64,000 nucleotides of DNA, taken from the NCBI RefSeq assembly GCF_000720425.1, contig NZ_JOAJ01000001.1, positions 1,860,001 through 1,924,000 on the forward strand, in the 5' to 3' direction. The notes beneath the pieces are model-generated. The model searched no databases and was not told the origin of the DNA. It was given only the letters and a program-made list of their open reading frames with translations. How positions within the stretch are numbered: position 1 is the first letter of the stretch; the number at the start of each line of letters is the position of its first letter. Positions 3,138 to 7,868 of this stretch are shown in pieces. Origin of the DNA: Nocardia rhamnosiphila NBRC 108938. GTDB taxonomy: Bacteria > Actinomycetota > Actinomycetes > Mycobacteriales > Mycobacteriaceae. The position numbers were made by a program, and so were the translations under genes.

Positions 3138-3160
3138 GTTATAGTCGTGAGGACTAAAAC
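3138..3160. promoter_or_regulatory. Inverted repeat upstream of the vWA gene (candidate operator)
   Basis: Arms GTTATAGTC (3138-3146) and GACTAAAAC (3152-3160) match at 8 of 9 positions around a 5-nt spacer. The core TAGTC/GACTA is perfect. The repeat sits 16 nt before the ATG of the vWA gene and just ahead of its ribosome-binding site, a place where a bound repressor would block transcription. The controlling protein is not shown by the sequence. The Nudix-type regulator at 6367 is a candidate by proximity only. Confidence 0.45.
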
Positions 3161-3176
3161 GTGAAGGAGCTTCGAG

Positions 3177-4115
3177 ATGGGTTACGGAAACTGGGACCAC
3201 AGCGCCTACCGGGCGGCCAAGGCCTACCGCACGCACCGGGGTATGGACGATTTCGGTTACACCGCGCAACTGCGCGAGCAGCCCTACGACACCTGGAAGG
3301 TCCACCCGGACCTGGATCCGTTCGGCGTACGGGCGCGCGAATGCCGGGATTCGGCCGACCACGGCAATTCGCTGCCGATCGCCGTACTGTTCGACGTCAC
3401 CGGGTCCATGGGGCAGGTACCGATGATCATGCAGGGCAAACTCGGAAAACTGCACGGCCTGCTGCGGGACAAGGGTTATGCCGACGATCCGCAGATCCTG
3501 TTCGGCGGCATCGGCGACGCCGATACCGACCGCGCCCCGCTCCAGGTGGGCCAGTTCGAATCCGACAACCGGATGGACGAACAGCTGCGGGCCGTCCTGC
3601 TCGAAGGCGGAGGCGGCGGCCAGAAATCCGAGAGTTACGAGCTGGCGGCGTACTTCATGGCCGAACACGTGGTGACCGATGCCTGGGAGAAGCGCGGCAA
3701 GAAGGGATACCTGTTCCTCATCGGCGACGAACTGAACAAACCCCGGCTGGCCGCCCGCCACATCCGGGCCGTGATCGGCGATCACCTCCGCACCGACATC
3801 ACGGTCGAGTCGATCTACCGCGAACTCGCGCAGCGCTGGCAGGTGCACTACATCCTGCCGAACCAGTCGTCCTACTACCACGATCCCGAGATCGCGGAGC
3901 ACTGGCGAGCGCTGTTGGGCCAGAACTTCCTGCGCCTCGACGACCCGGCGGCGGTCTGCGAATTGATCGCGCTGACGATCGGGCTGTCGGAGAACCGGGT
4001 GGACGTGCACACGGGGCTGGCCGATCTGCGCGATATCGGTTCGGCGGCCGAGGCCGAGGTGGTCGGCCGGGCGCTGCACGCGCAGCCGAAGGCATTGCCC
4101 GGCGGCAGCCACTGA
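3177..4115 (+). CDS. von Willebrand factor A-like protein
   Basis: 312 residues, no signal peptide, so cytosolic. The vWA core begins near residue 66 with IAVLFDVTGSMGQVP, a MIDAS-type DxTGS metal site. A second acidic strand, YLFLIGDELNKPR, lies near residue 185. The N-terminal ~60 residues (GYGNWDHSAYRAAKAYR onward) are rich in aromatic and charged residues and seem specific to this group. A Gly run (EGGGGGQKSE) sits in the middle. The ATG at 3177 has a good ribosome-binding site (GAAGGAGC). The next gene, a PurA-like protein, starts 31 nt downstream on the same strand, so the two are probably one operon. The function is unknown; vWA proteins usually bind a partner protein through the metal site. 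Confidence 0.8.
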   Translation: MGYGNWDHSAYRAAKAYRTHRGMDDFGYTAQLREQPYDTWKVHPDLDPFGVRARECRDSADHGNSLPIAVLFDVTGSMGQVPMIMQGKLGKLHGLLRDKGYADDPQILFGGIGDADTDRAPLQVGQFESDNRMDEQLRAVLLEGGGGGQKSESYELAAYFMAEHVVTDAWEKRGKKGYLFLIGDELNKPRLAARHIRAVIGDHLRTDITVESIYRELAQRWQVHYILPNQSSYYHDPEIAEHWRALLGQNFLRLDDPAAVCELIALTIGLSENRVDVHTGLADLRDIGSAAEAEVVGRALHAQPKALPGGSH

Positions 4116-4146
4116 ACGAAACGCACCGGATAGGAAGAGCGCGGAT

Positions 4147-5478
4147 ATGACGGACCGGACGCGGACCGGCCGGCATCTGATCGTGGTGGATCTCGGCTTC
4201 GGCGACGCCGGAAAAGGGGCGACCGTCGACTGGCTGTGCTCCCCCGAGGCGGCACTGGGCGTTTCGGCGGTGGTGCGATTCAACGGCGGCGCGCAGGCCG
4301 CGCACAATGTGGTCGCGGCCGGCCGGCACCACACCTTCGCCCAATTCGGCTCGGGAAGCTTCTCGGGGGTGCCGACGCTGCTCTCCGAGCACATGCTGGT
4401 GGAACCACTGGCGCTGGCCGCGGAAGCGGATCGGCTCGCCCGGCTGGGCGTGTCGGATCCACTGTCGCTGCTGTCCGTCGACGGGCGCGCCCTCCTCACC
4501 ACCCCCGTCCATATCGCGGCCAACCGGGCCCGTGAGGAGGCACGCGGCGCCGACCGGCACGGGTCGTGCGGGATGGGCATCGGGGAAACCGCGGCCTACG
4601 CACTGCGTCACGACGCGCCACGGGTCGCGGACTGCCTGCGGCCCGCGGTACTCCGGCGGAAACTGCGGGCGCTCACCGAGCACTACCGACCGCTGCTCGC
4701 CTCGAGCGCGCACCACCACGAACCGATCGAGCTCCTACTGGACGCGTATCGGGCTTTCGGTGCCGCGGTGCGGATCACCGGCCCCGGGGCACTGGCGCGG
4801 TTCGCGCGACACGGCCGCCTGGTGTTCGAGGGCGCGCAAGGGGTCCTATTGGACGAATGGCGAGGCTTCCATCCGTACACCACCTGGTCGACGGTCGAGC
4901 CACGCAACGCGCGCACCCTGCTGGCCGGTATCGGCGCCACCGCGGCCGTCCTCGGCGTGACCCGCTCCTATACGACCCGGCACGGTGCCGGTCCCTTTCC
5001 CACCGAGGAACCGGGGCTGCGGCACCGGGAACCGCACAACGGCACGGGTCGCTATCAGGGCGCCTTCCGGCAGGGCTCCCTCGATACGGTTCTGCTGCGA
5101 TATGCCGTAGCCGTCTGCGGCGGTGTCGACGGGCTCGTGGTCACCCATCTGGACAGGGTCGCCGGCGGAAAGGCGGCCACCGCCTACGCCACCGCGGACG
5201 GTATCCGGGACTCACTCGAGCCGGGCCCCTGGCAGGATCTGGGCCACCAGCGGGCGTTGACCGAGATCCTCGCGGCCGCCACCCCGCTGTACACCGACCT
5301 CCCCGCGGACGTCCCCGGTTGGTTGCACCATCACCTCGGCGTCCCGGTGGTGCTCACCGCGCACGGTCCGGGCCGTCGCGCCCGGCGGGCCACCGAATCG
5401 TTCGAGACACTGCTGCGCCGGAGTGAGCCGGGCGCCCGGCCCCCCACCGCTGCGCCGACGCCGGCGCGGACAGCGTGA
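4147..5478 (+). CDS. Divergent adenylosuccinate synthetase (PurA) paralogue
   Basis: 443 residues with the PurA fold signatures in order. These are a GTP loop DLGFGDAGKGATVDWL, FNGGAQAAH (the PurA FNGG..AGH element), GSCGMGIGETAAYA, FEGAQGVLLDEW, SYTTRHGAGPFPTE, and VTHLD in the place of the guanine-specificity TKLD. Housekeeping PurA has GDEGKGK in the first loop. Here the Glu and the last Lys are both Ala, so this is a paralogue rather than the purine-pathway enzyme and may use another acceptor. It follows the vWA gene by 31 nt, with AGGAAG upstream of the ATG. The C-terminal ~20 residues are Pro/Ala-rich. It probably ligates an amino acid or amine to a nucleotide, but that is inference. 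Confidence 0.82.
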   Translation: MTDRTRTGRHLIVVDLGFGDAGKGATVDWLCSPEAALGVSAVVRFNGGAQAAHNVVAAGRHHTFAQFGSGSFSGVPTLLSEHMLVEPLALAAEADRLARLGVSDPLSLLSVDGRALLTTPVHIAANRAREEARGADRHGSCGMGIGETAAYALRHDAPRVADCLRPAVLRRKLRALTEHYRPLLASSAHHHEPIELLLDAYRAFGAAVRITGPGALARFARHGRLVFEGAQGVLLDEWRGFHPYTTWSTVEPRNARTLLAGIGATAAVLGVTRSYTTRHGAGPFPTEEPGLRHREPHNGTGRYQGAFRQGSLDTVLLRYAVAVCGGVDGLVVTHLDRVAGGKAATAYATADGIRDSLEPGPWQDLGHQRALTEILAAATPLYTDLPADVPGWLHHHLGVPVVLTAHGPGRRARRATESFETLLRRSEPGARPPTAAPTPARTA

Positions 5479-5498
5479 TCGCACACCGCCGCGGGCGT

Positions 5499-6269
5499 TC
5501 AGCGCAGTATCGTGCCGCCGTCGATATTGATGACCTGCCCGTTGATCCAGGCACCGTCGTCGGAGAGCAGGAAGGCCACCGCCGCGGCGATATCCGCCGG
5601 TTCCCCCACCCGTGGACTGTGCATCCGGCCCAGAGCGGCCTTTTCCAGGTCCGGCCACTGGGGGGCGGATCGGATCGCCTCGGTCGCCGTGAAGCCCGGT
5701 GCCACGGCATTGCAGCGCACCCCTTCTCTGCCCCATCGTGTCGCCACATGGCGGGTCAGCGCGCCGATCCCTGCCTTGCTGGCCGCGTAGGCCGGCCTGG
5801 TCGGCTCGCCCTGGAAGGCCGCCGCCGAGGACATATTGACGATCGCTCCACCGCCTCGGCCGACCATCAGCGGGATGGCGTGCTTCATGGTGCTCAGATA
5901 GCCGCGCAGGCTCACCGTCATCACCCGGTCCCAGATCTCCAGGTCGATATCGACGACATCGGTGTCGTGGCGCAGCGTGCGCATATCCGCCCCGACATTG
6001 AACAGCGCGTCCACTCCGCCGAATCGGCGGATCGCCTGCTCGAACAGGCCGGCGACCGATACCGGATCGGCCAGGTCGAAGGCCACCGCGAGGGCGACGC
6101 CCCCGGCCGCGGCGATCTTCTCGGAGGTGCCCGCGGCATCGGTTTCGCGGAGGTCGCCGACGACGACACGCCAACCCTGAGCGCCGAGCCGGACGGCCGT
6201 CGCGGCGCCGAGCCCGGTGGCACCACCGGCCACCACAGCTACTTTTCCATCCGGTCCGGGTGCGCCCAT
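5499..6269 (-). CDS. SDR family NAD(P)-dependent oxidoreductase
   Basis: 256 residues, a classical short-chain dehydrogenase. It has the coenzyme motif GGATGLGAAT, an acidic DL pair after the second strand, catalytic Ser in NMSSAAAFQ, YAASKAG (YxxxK) and the C-terminal GQVINIDGGT. FNVGAD replaces the usual NNAG, a slightly unusual variant. The ATG at 6269 is preferred over an in-frame ATG at 6308, which has its ribosome-binding site too close. It is convergent with the PurA-like gene (20 nt apart) and divergent from the Nudix-type regulator, with which it shares an intergenic inverted repeat. The substrate is unknown. Confidence 0.85.
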   Translation of the reverse strand: MGAPGPDGKVAVVAGGATGLGAATAVRLGAQGWRVVVGDLRETDAAGTSEKIAAAGGVALAVAFDLADPVSVAGLFEQAIRRFGGVDALFNVGADMRTLRHDTDVVDIDLEIWDRVMTVSLRGYLSTMKHAIPLMVGRGGGAIVNMSSAAAFQGEPTRPAYAASKAGIGALTRHVATRWGREGVRCNAVAPGFTATEAIRSAPQWPDLEKAALGRMHSPRVGEPADIAAAVAFLLSDDGAWINGQVINIDGGTILR

Positions 6270-6304
6270 ATCCGCGTTCTCACTTCCCGATTCTCGAGAG
6301 AATA

Positions 6305-6326
6305 TCATTCTCCATTACAAGAATGA
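6305..6326. promoter_or_regulatory. Inverted repeat between the SDR and Nudix genes
   Basis: Perfect 7-bp arms TCATTCT (6305-6311) and AGAATGA (6320-6326) around an 8-nt AT-rich spacer. The site lies 36 nt upstream of the SDR start and 41 nt upstream of the Nudix-type gene, in the divergent promoter region. It may be the binding site of the adjacent regulator. Confidence 0.45.
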
Positions 6327-6366
6327 CAATACCCCACGGACGGGGCGTCGAGATGGATACGGCAGT

Positions 6367-7002
6367 ATGGGTGCTGTGGACCAATCGGCGGTATCGGTGG
6401 ATGTCGTGGCGTTGCGGTTCTGGGCCGACGACGCCGCGGCCACCTTCGGAATTGCGGCACGCCCGCACGAGCCCTTCACCGGGCACGTCGCGTTACCCGG
6501 TGTCCTGCTGGGGCGCGGCGAACGCCTCGCCGAGGCGGCGCGCCGGGCCGTGCACACCAAACTCGGTGTACCCGGCGGCGCCATCGGCCCGGTCGGTCAG
6601 CTGGTCACCTTCGACGAGCCCACTCGCGATCCCCGCGGCCCCACACTGTCGATCGTCATGTGGGCGGTGACCGCACAGCACGACGGCCCCGCGCAGTGGG
6701 CCTCGTTCGACGACGCCCCGGCACTGGCCTTCGATCACGACAGCATTGTGGCCGCGGCGCGCGGCCTGCTGTCGGGCCTGCTCTGGAAAGATCTGGCGCT
6801 GACCCGGGCCCTGCTGGGCGACGAGTTCCCGGCAACCCGTGCGGTCGACCTCACGACCTCCTTGCTCGGCGCCCGGCCCGATGCGGCGAACCTCAACCGC
6901 ACGCTCGCCGGTATACCGGGGCTGCACAAGACCGACGAGCGCCGCCGTACCAAGGCCACCGGCCGGCCGGCCGCCGTCTGGTCCTTCACCGCCGACCGGT
7001 AG
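6367..7002 (+). CDS. Nudix-domain protein with C-terminal winged helix, NrtR-like regulator
   Basis: 211 residues. The N-terminal ~130 residues follow the Nudix fold, but the catalytic box is degraded. In GERLAEAARRAVHTKLGV the REUxEExGU acidic residues needed for metal-dependent hydrolysis are missing. The C-terminal ~75 residues (FPATRAVDLTTSLLG, NRTLAGIPGLHKT, ending GRPAAVWSF) resemble the winged-helix segment of NrtR-family repressors, which sense ADP-ribose-type ligands. A regulatory role is therefore more likely than catalysis. It is divergent from the SDR over the repeat at 6305-6326. The PrmC-related gene follows 59 nt later. The start at 6367 gives the compact family N-terminus, though the ribosome-binding site is weak. 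Confidence 0.75.
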   Translation: MGAVDQSAVSVDVVALRFWADDAAATFGIAARPHEPFTGHVALPGVLLGRGERLAEAARRAVHTKLGVPGGAIGPVGQLVTFDEPTRDPRGPTLSIVMWAVTAQHDGPAQWASFDDAPALAFDHDSIVAAARGLLSGLLWKDLALTRALLGDEFPATRAVDLTTSLLGARPDAANLNRTLAGIPGLHKTDERRRTKATGRPAAVWSFTADR

Positions 7003-7061
7003 CCGGCCGCCGCACCGGTATTTCCGGTGCGCACGGCGTACGGAGCCGACAGACTGTGCCC

Positions 7062-7868
7062 ATGACCGCTTTCGACACCGCCGAGATCACCCGGCGGCTC
7101 CGCGCTGCCGGCTGCGTGTTCGCGGAGGAGGAAGCGCGGTTACTGAGCGAAGCCGCGACCTCGGACGAGGAACTGGCGGCCCTGCTGACCCGCCGGATCG
7201 CAGGCACTCCGCTGGAGCATCTGCTCGGCTGGGTGCAGTTCCGTGGCCTCCGGATCGGCGTCCGGGACGGGGTGTTCGTCCCGCGGCAACGCTCGGCCCT
7301 GCTCGTGGACGAGGCGCTCACGCTGGCCGCGGACCACCCGGTACGCACGGTGGTCGACCTGTGCTGCGGCTCGGGAGCCCTGGGCCTGGCCCTGCGCACC
7401 GGGCTCGGCCCGCGGCCGGTGGAATTGGTGGCCGCCGATATCGACCCCGTGGCGGTGGCCTGTGCCCGCGACAATCTCGCCGCGATCGGCGGCCGGGTCC
7501 ACCAGGGCGATCTCTTCGACGCGCTACCGGAAGAACTGCGCGGCCGGATCGATATCCTGCTCGCCAACACCCCGTATGTCCCGTCCGGCCTGATCGCGCG
7601 GCTGCCACCGGAGGCTCGCGAACACGAACCCCAGGCGGCCCTCGACGGCGGACCCGACGGTCTGACGCTGGCCCGGCGCACCGCGGCGGCGGCGGCCGGA
7701 TGGCTGGCACCGGGCGGGTCTCTGCTTATCGAGATAGGTATCGATCAGGTGCCGGCCGCCACGGATCTGCTCACCGCCGGTGGGCTCACCGCCCGGATCG
7801 TGCGCTCACCGGACCTCGACGCCACGGTGGCCGTGGGCAGGCGTCCAGCGGCTACTTCCGGCCGGTGA
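7062..7868 (+). CDS. PrmC/HemK-related N5-glutamine methyltransferase
   Basis: 268 residues. An N-terminal helical part carries the PrmC-type GTPLEHLLGWVQF. A class I SAM-binding domain follows with VDLCCGSGALGLAL (motif I) and AADIDPVAVACARDN. The substrate motif is ANTPYVP where PrmC proper has NPPY. The length and the NTPY variant match the PrmC-related group rather than the release-factor methyltransferase encoded beside prfA. It probably methylates a protein glutamine or a similar amide. The last 17 bases overlap the 3' end of the convergent SDR gene. Confidence 0.82.
   Translation: MTAFDTAEITRRLRAAGCVFAEEEARLLSEAATSDEELAALLTRRIAGTPLEHLLGWVQFRGLRIGVRDGVFVPRQRSALLVDEALTLAADHPVRTVVDLCCGSGALGLALRTGLGPRPVELVAADIDPVAVACARDNLAAIGGRVHQGDLFDALPEELRGRIDILLANTPYVPSGLIARLPPEAREHEPQAALDGGPDGLTLARRTAAAAAGWLAPGGSLLIEIGIDQVPAATDLLTAGGLTARIVRSPDLDATVAVGRRPAATSGR

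Follow-up and report, generated by a model that had tools for sequence, protein, structure and literature searches.

A probable mobile operon pairing a vWA protein with a PurA-fold ligase under an NrtR-type repressor in actinobacteria, with relatives in phages

Regulators of the NrtR family join a Nudix domain to an NrtR-type winged helix and bind palindromic operators. In the available part of PMC6800001, ADP-ribose is given as the usual ligand of the family and the Mycobacterium smegmatis member is described as lacking hydrolase activity; according to the available part of PMC4666351, NrtR-family proteins may respond to NAD or L-arabinose, the latter being the ligand of BtAraR. A Nudix-HTH regulator adjoins a vWA protein in the Nudix-TF-regulated ADP-ribosylglycohydrolase/vWA-chaperone systems (Iyer et al. 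2022, PMC9503650), and in the portion of that paper available to us vWA proteins so placed in ADP-ribose conflict systems are interpreted as chaperones that bind peptides. The MoxR-vWA ternary conflict systems (Kaur et al. 2020, PMC7159879), as set out in the accessible text, likewise use a vWA protein as a metal-dependent peptide binder within a small multi-gene system, and jumbo-phage vWA and DnaJ genes appear in PMC7824862, whose available text has no mention of adenylosuccinate.

The locus described here lies in a 64,000-nucleotide stretch of Nocardia rhamnosiphila NBRC 108938, the whole of which we call the window, and comprises as one unit a vWA gene (3177-4115, 312 aa), a PurA-like gene (4147-5478, 443 aa) and an NrtR-like Nudix gene (6367-7002, 211 aa), all on the plus strand. 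An earlier note on this DNA had described the vWA gene preceded by an inverted repeat, the PurA-like gene 31 nt later and a Nudix protein with a broken catalytic box and a winged helix, and these observations were confirmed. The regulator shares the Nudix domain, palindromic operator, degenerate Nudix box and, probably, the winged helix of the NrtR family, whereas its target is other than NAD synthesis. Compared with the systems of Iyer et al., as far as the text at hand describes them, a PurA-like ligase stands in place of the ADP-ribosylglycohydrolase or phosphatase, neither of which was found among the six window-region genes scanned with Pfam; the terms adenylosuccinate, PurA and DnaJ do not occur in the main text of PMC9503650. 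The same six genes included no MoxR ATPase, and adenylosuccinate does not occur in the text of PMC7159879.

Gene neighbourhoods were compared in the best 80 of 371 actinobacterial vWA relatives from a species-genome scan, gene counts in bacterial loci resting on tblastn and de novo gene calling being rough (antisense false genes). The PurA-like gene accompanied the vWA gene in all 80 loci and an NrtR/Nudix gene was present in 77, the other three (L035, L047 and L054; L numbers denote individual loci) ending at a contig edge. An NrtR-type gene also stood beside the operon in 17 of 17 further stretches (16 from a search of the order and one Nocardia locus with a split vWA gene), placed downstream on the same strand, convergently or as the first gene, and it sometimes lies apart from the PurA-like gene, about 2 kb on in L043. 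The proposal of the earlier note that vWA, PurA-like and Nudix genes and the repeat belong together was therefore borne out, while the PrmC-related methyltransferase that it had included was rejected as part of the operon, being found in 2 of the 80 relatives. GalT was likewise rejected (3/80), as was the SDR oxidoreductase gene on the minus strand between the PurA-like and Nudix genes (5499-6308), which has a close match only in L034 (N. fusca), again between the PurA-like gene and the regulator, with weak matches to other SDRs in L072, L074 and L099 and no close match in N. carnea (L036). Lying in between, the SDR gene may detach regulator from operon, and autoregulation may have been lost at this locus. 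By eye, a further inverted repeat, GAGAAT-ATC-ATTCTC (6290-6306), is found near the SDR start and before the Nudix gene; it is unlike the NrtR operator and is perhaps a site for another regulator. An accidental grouping is true of the SDR, GalT and PrmC-related genes, the SDR and PrmC-related ones being local, but is refuted for the vWA, PurA-like and Nudix genes and the operator by their conservation in the 80 relatives, leaving it a negligible chance as an account of the locus.

The operator is the inverted repeat GTTATAGTC-GTGAG-GACTAAAAC (3138-3160, no strand), located 16 nt before the vWA start codon, and differs in its form, TTTTAGTC-N5-GACTAAAA, from the mycobacterial NrtR site GTTTTCGA-N7-TCGAAAAC given in the available part of PMC6800001. 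By eye, a -10-like hexamer (TATAGT) falls within its left arm, suggesting that a bound repressor would cover the promoter. Taken alone, the repeat in the window is statistically unremarkable (2 matches at no more than 2 mismatches against 6.2 expected). When the 200 nt ahead of the first operon gene were scored for TTT[TG]AGTC-N5-GACT[AC]AAA with at least 13 of the 16 bases matching, 76 of the 80 relatives carried the repeat there, against 0/80 before the PurA-like gene and 3/1600 dinucleotide shuffles, the pattern having been derived from the loci in which it was then counted and both controls having used the same pattern. The recurrence that the earlier note had proposed to check is thus present. 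The four misses (L072, L102, L103 and L105) carry repeats further upstream, TTTTAGTCTTCTAGTCTAAAA in L072 and TAAGAGTCGTCTAGACTCAAA in the other three, and are still counted as misses. In the genome of the window the 21-nt site occurs at one exact place and at one with 3 mismatches (2 and 1 matches in the backward control), a scarcity which indicates that the regulator is probably local. Nocardia loci with a pseudokinase gene (described below) or its remnant (L069, L071-L076, L081-L086, L088, L090, L091, L095, L100 and L112) have an additional, weaker repeat some 47 bp ahead of the operator, which suggests cooperative binding. The loci L139-L149 form a second actinobacterial group, headed by a different NrtR gene, and TCTC[AG]-N-[CT]GAG repeats precede that gene in 10 of 11 loci against 7/1100 shuffles, this pattern too having been derived from the same loci.

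In 37 of the 80 actinobacterial relatives another gene, missed by the earlier note, comes first in the operon and encodes a fusion of a J-domain with a dead protein kinase. The operator precedes this pseudokinase gene in 33 of the 37 loci and the vWA gene in all of those that lack it (43/43), and it therefore marks the operon start. The pseudokinase gene is also missing from the locus described here, where the operator now abuts the vWA gene. Among 68 pseudokinase sequences (65 distinct) none has the HRD aspartate of active kinases, while the HPD tripeptide of the J-domain is present in 62, the misses (L019, L020, L024, L030, L032 and L117) including several partial matches. A search of the genome of the window returned weak generic kinase matches at most (best E 3.2e-4), so the gene looks lost rather than moved. 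In L072 (N. acidivorans), counted among the 37, a 37-residue match to the pseudokinase C-terminus lies between operator and vWA gene and is possibly a remnant, like a gene being lost. The label 'adenylate cyclase' on the pseudokinase in Lentzea, Saccharothrix and Umezawaea looks unfounded.

The vWA protein has a DxSxS-type metal motif and the vWA/MIDAS fold, its MIDAS-type residues D73-x-T75-x-S77 lying in the motif DVTGS (residues 73-77; 3393-3407, plus strand), of which D73, G76 and S77 are invariant in 15 diverse sequences. The family is large (5054 matches in one search, 7999 candidates scored), and in the annotated records examined the vWA protein is called hypothetical and its partner adenylosuccinate synthetase. 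One Nocardia vWA gene (L152, genome G598, near 5000-5900) is split into overlapping matches to residues 1-152 and 149-301 and may be broken.

The Nudix box of the regulator, GVLLGRGERLAEAARRAVHTKLG (6499-6567, plus strand), lacks the catalytic glutamates and is similarly degenerate in actinobacterial relatives, whereas of L139-L149 the two NrtR proteins checked, those of L143 and L147, have an intact box. The winged helix of the window regulator scored 21.5 bits against PF21906, below the cut-off of 27 bits, and the NrtR proteins of three other loci with the operon genes scored 44.6-81 bits. The predicted recognition-helix residues, NLNR in the window (6889-6900, plus strand), vary with the operator: where its fourth and eighteenth bases are T/A the regulator has NLNR in 58 of 59 loci, and where they are G/C it has NLGR in 12 of 13, as does the single G/A locus, a covariation that follows clades and may reflect a single event. 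On these comparisons the putative pairing of repressor and operator is well supported. By analogy with the usual answer in the family, ADP-ribose would be the ligand; the nucleotide-sensing system supposed by the earlier note is likewise a candidate reading. The closest solved relative of the regulator, BtAraR (5bs6, E 1.3e-6), counts against a reading in terms of NAD.

The PurA-like protein matches the PurA family (PF00709; Adenylsucc_synt, 206 bits) and is 29-30% identical to the two canonical PurA proteins with which it was aligned. It was compared with E. coli PurA in an alignment of 187 sequences (179 distinct; removing duplicates changes nothing of substance). In the E. coli enzyme the catalytic residues are Asp13, the P-loop Lys16, His41 and Gln224, and the substrate contacts are T129 and R143 for the IMP 5'-phosphate, R303 and R305 of the TTGRxR loop for aspartate and K331 and D333 for guanine. 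All four catalytic residues, together with T239, are invariant in 187 of 187 sequences, Asp13 and Lys16 lying in the window in the P-loop GDAGKG (4201-4218, plus strand); other positions have changed, N38 to Gln in 185, V273 to His in all 187 and S240 to Trp in 145. Most substrate contacts are altered as well. The T129 position is Cys in 157 sequences, Val in 25 and Thr in 5, and is Cys in the window; the R143 position is not Arg in the 173 sequences shown of 187 and is His in the window; and at the guanine contact K331 no sequence keeps the lysine, 145 having His and 34 Cys. The aspartate loop is replaced mostly by [YWF]QG-x-[FWLI], the R303 column being missing in all 187 sequences and the R305 column never Arg, with an Arg one place on in 186, the placement of this gap being uncertain.

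These data bear on the alternative that the locus encodes a second adenylosuccinate synthetase supplying extra AMP under stress, with the vWA gene as a passenger. The PurA fold, the invariant catalytic Asp, Lys, His and Gln, the retention of D333 in 186 of 187 sequences and the name adenylosuccinate synthetase that the gene bears in records of phages and plasmids speak for such an enzyme, but a normal purA is already present in the genome, the contacts T129, R143, R303, R305 and K331 have given way to other residues in almost every member of the family, and the constant company of vWA and PurA-like genes in the 80 bacterial loci and their correlated divergence in phages do not fit a passenger; we consider this explanation quite improbable. 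The window protein also falls far below the NCBIfam cut-offs, with 161.5 bits against 402 for the PurA equivalog and 23 bits against 300 for PurZ, the aminoadenine synthase (NF038379). Since the residues of the chemistry are kept and those for the IMP phosphate, aspartate and one guanine contact are replaced, the protein is probably not an adenylosuccinate synthetase, a predicted loss of function to be read beside the retention of D333 (186/187), of T129 in 5 sequences and of one loop arginine. The label '2-aminooxy adenylosuccinate synthetase' given to the gene in some phage records looks unfounded.

The vWA gene is patchily distributed, occurring in 91 of 148 Nocardia genomes, 23 of 150 in the order and 2 of 396 in the phylum (own genome included), as well as on 21 plasmid records, and the Nocardia loci have, by eye, at least three different sets of flanking genes, which fits a mobile accessory module. 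In four of six proteobacterial plasmid loci (L116, L120, L122 and L134) the NrtR gene is divergent from the pseudokinase gene, and it was not seen in the other two, L117 and L135. One of them, L134, gave no PurA-like match by tblastn, so the trio of pseudokinase, vWA and PurA-like proteins is not always complete and a fixed three-protein machine is not required; the dispensability of the pseudokinase in bacteria also counts against such a machine. Spread of this kind would suit a bacterial anti-phage defence switched on by NAD breakdown, whose genes phages then captured. A PADLOC scan of seven proteins, however, gave no hit other than kinase similarity, and the vWA gene occurs in 207 of 50,697 phage records, of which 188 belong to Mycobacterium phages, regarded as virulent and an unusual home for a defence system (10 others are Rhizobium phages, 6 Vibrio phages and 3 others); defence is in our judgement unlikely.

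In four annotated phages the vWA gene is followed, directly or after one other gene, by a gene annotated as adenylosuccinate synthetase, and in two of them a kinase gene precedes the vWA gene. A wider viral scan (best 80 of 389 vWA relatives), merged with the first and freed of 6 duplicates, gave 80 loci, some from near-identical phages, in which the vWA gene was called in 76, the PurA-like gene in 75, the pseudokinase in 56 and the Nudix gene in 3. The association of vWA/PurA-like pairs with a Nudix regulator put forward in the earlier note accordingly holds in bacteria but not in phages, which carry the trio mostly without it, and the regulator appears to be mainly a bacterial addition. Divergence of the vWA and PurA-like proteins is correlated in phages (short fragments left out), a correlation that the relatedness of the loci inflates. 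PHROGs lists the three trio families separately, the vWA one as unknown, and no description of the trio was found in the open PubMed Central literature, subscription papers lying outside the search.

Three viral loci (L030, L032 and L169) combine the trio with an NrtR gene and one NAMPT-like family, confirmed as NAPRTase in L030 and in the L169 record; L030 carries in addition a cytidylyltransferase-like gene, possibly for an NMN adenylyltransferase, and in L026 a NADAR gene stands directly before the trio. These NAMPT, cytidylyltransferase-like and NADAR neighbours strengthen the case for ADP-ribose as the putative ligand. For comparison, NARP2 is a phage NAD+ reconstitution pathway with Nampt and an NMN adenylyltransferase. 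The NAMPT homologue of the three loci resembles a feature of such pathways (NARP1, PMC12774641, and NARP2); neither Nampt nor NMN adenylyltransferase was among the six window-region genes scanned. PF04095 was found in 5 of 50 trio-bearing virus records and not in the other 45, the count covering 50 of the 65 records first tried; a general link of the trio to NAD salvage in phages is weak on this count, which also weighs against the NAD reading. The largest viral neighbour cluster besides the trio (267 aa, directly after the PurA-like gene) occurs in 10 of the 80 loci. Pfam and PHROGs scans of 130 viral neighbours took one protein per cluster, listed the 25 commonest families and are no measure of conservation. 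In L118, a Rhizobium phage with the vWA/PurA-like pair, a ComF-like phosphoribosyltransferase lies 3-5 kb upstream (stretch 4005-6269), together with a hydrolase annotated as dehalogenase-like and an annotated NMN adenylyltransferase/Nudix gene.

The viral loci raise the possibility that the trio began as a phage helper function, for takeover or for counter-defence against NAD-depleting immunity, which bacteria acquired and put under a repressor. Its presence in many viral contigs, mostly without a regulator, the three loci with NrtR and NAMPT genes and the NADAR locus would agree with this, but the low count of PF04095 and the restriction of the commonest neighbour family to 10 of 80 viral loci would not, and we regard such an origin as conceivable though doubtful.

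We favour the reading that the locus is a compact mobile operon in which a vWA adaptor and a PurA-fold ligase are, on balance probably, controlled by a dedicated, NAD/ADP-ribose-responsive NrtR-type repressor. Sequence comparison shows that the genes and the operator belong together, that operator and regulator are linked, that the kinase and Nudix domains have lost catalytic residues and that the PurA-like site is altered. As to which ligand acts, what reaction is catalysed and what the adaptors do, we infer the following scheme. At rest, an NrtR dimer on the inverted repeat over the promoter would keep the operon off. Upon NAD breakdown, ADP-ribose, or else a similar ligand derived from NAD or of the sugar-nucleotide kind, would bind in the dead Nudix pocket and release the repressor. 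The PurA-like enzyme would then, with an NTP, phosphorylate an oxygen of the carbonyl type and couple a nucleophile, acting on substrates other than IMP and aspartate, while the vWA protein, by metal-dependent peptide binding, would present or remodel a protein partner, helped where present by the J-domain pseudokinase, which would recruit Hsp70 through its HPD motif. Given the chaperone role, by peptide binding, assigned elsewhere to a vWA protein beside a Nudix regulator, and the Hsp70 that a J-domain would add, we take the trio for an adaptor-assisted ligase whose target would be a protein or a protein-bound nucleotide.

In its full form the proposal, which we put forward tentatively as a real possibility, is that bacteria and phages share a module in which an NAD/ADP-ribose-sensing repressor governs a ligase of the PurA fold that acts on a new pair of substrates, and a MIDAS adaptor and an Hsp70-recruiting J-domain pseudokinase deliver it to protein clients, the whole answering NAD-depleting conflict by a new modification of proteins or nucleotides. 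We rate it as new as a system, each of its folds being already known. If true, it would give the PurA fold a further, new activity, with a J-domain pseudokinase as partner, and would extend NrtR-type control to a new target linked with NAD stress where phage and host meet.
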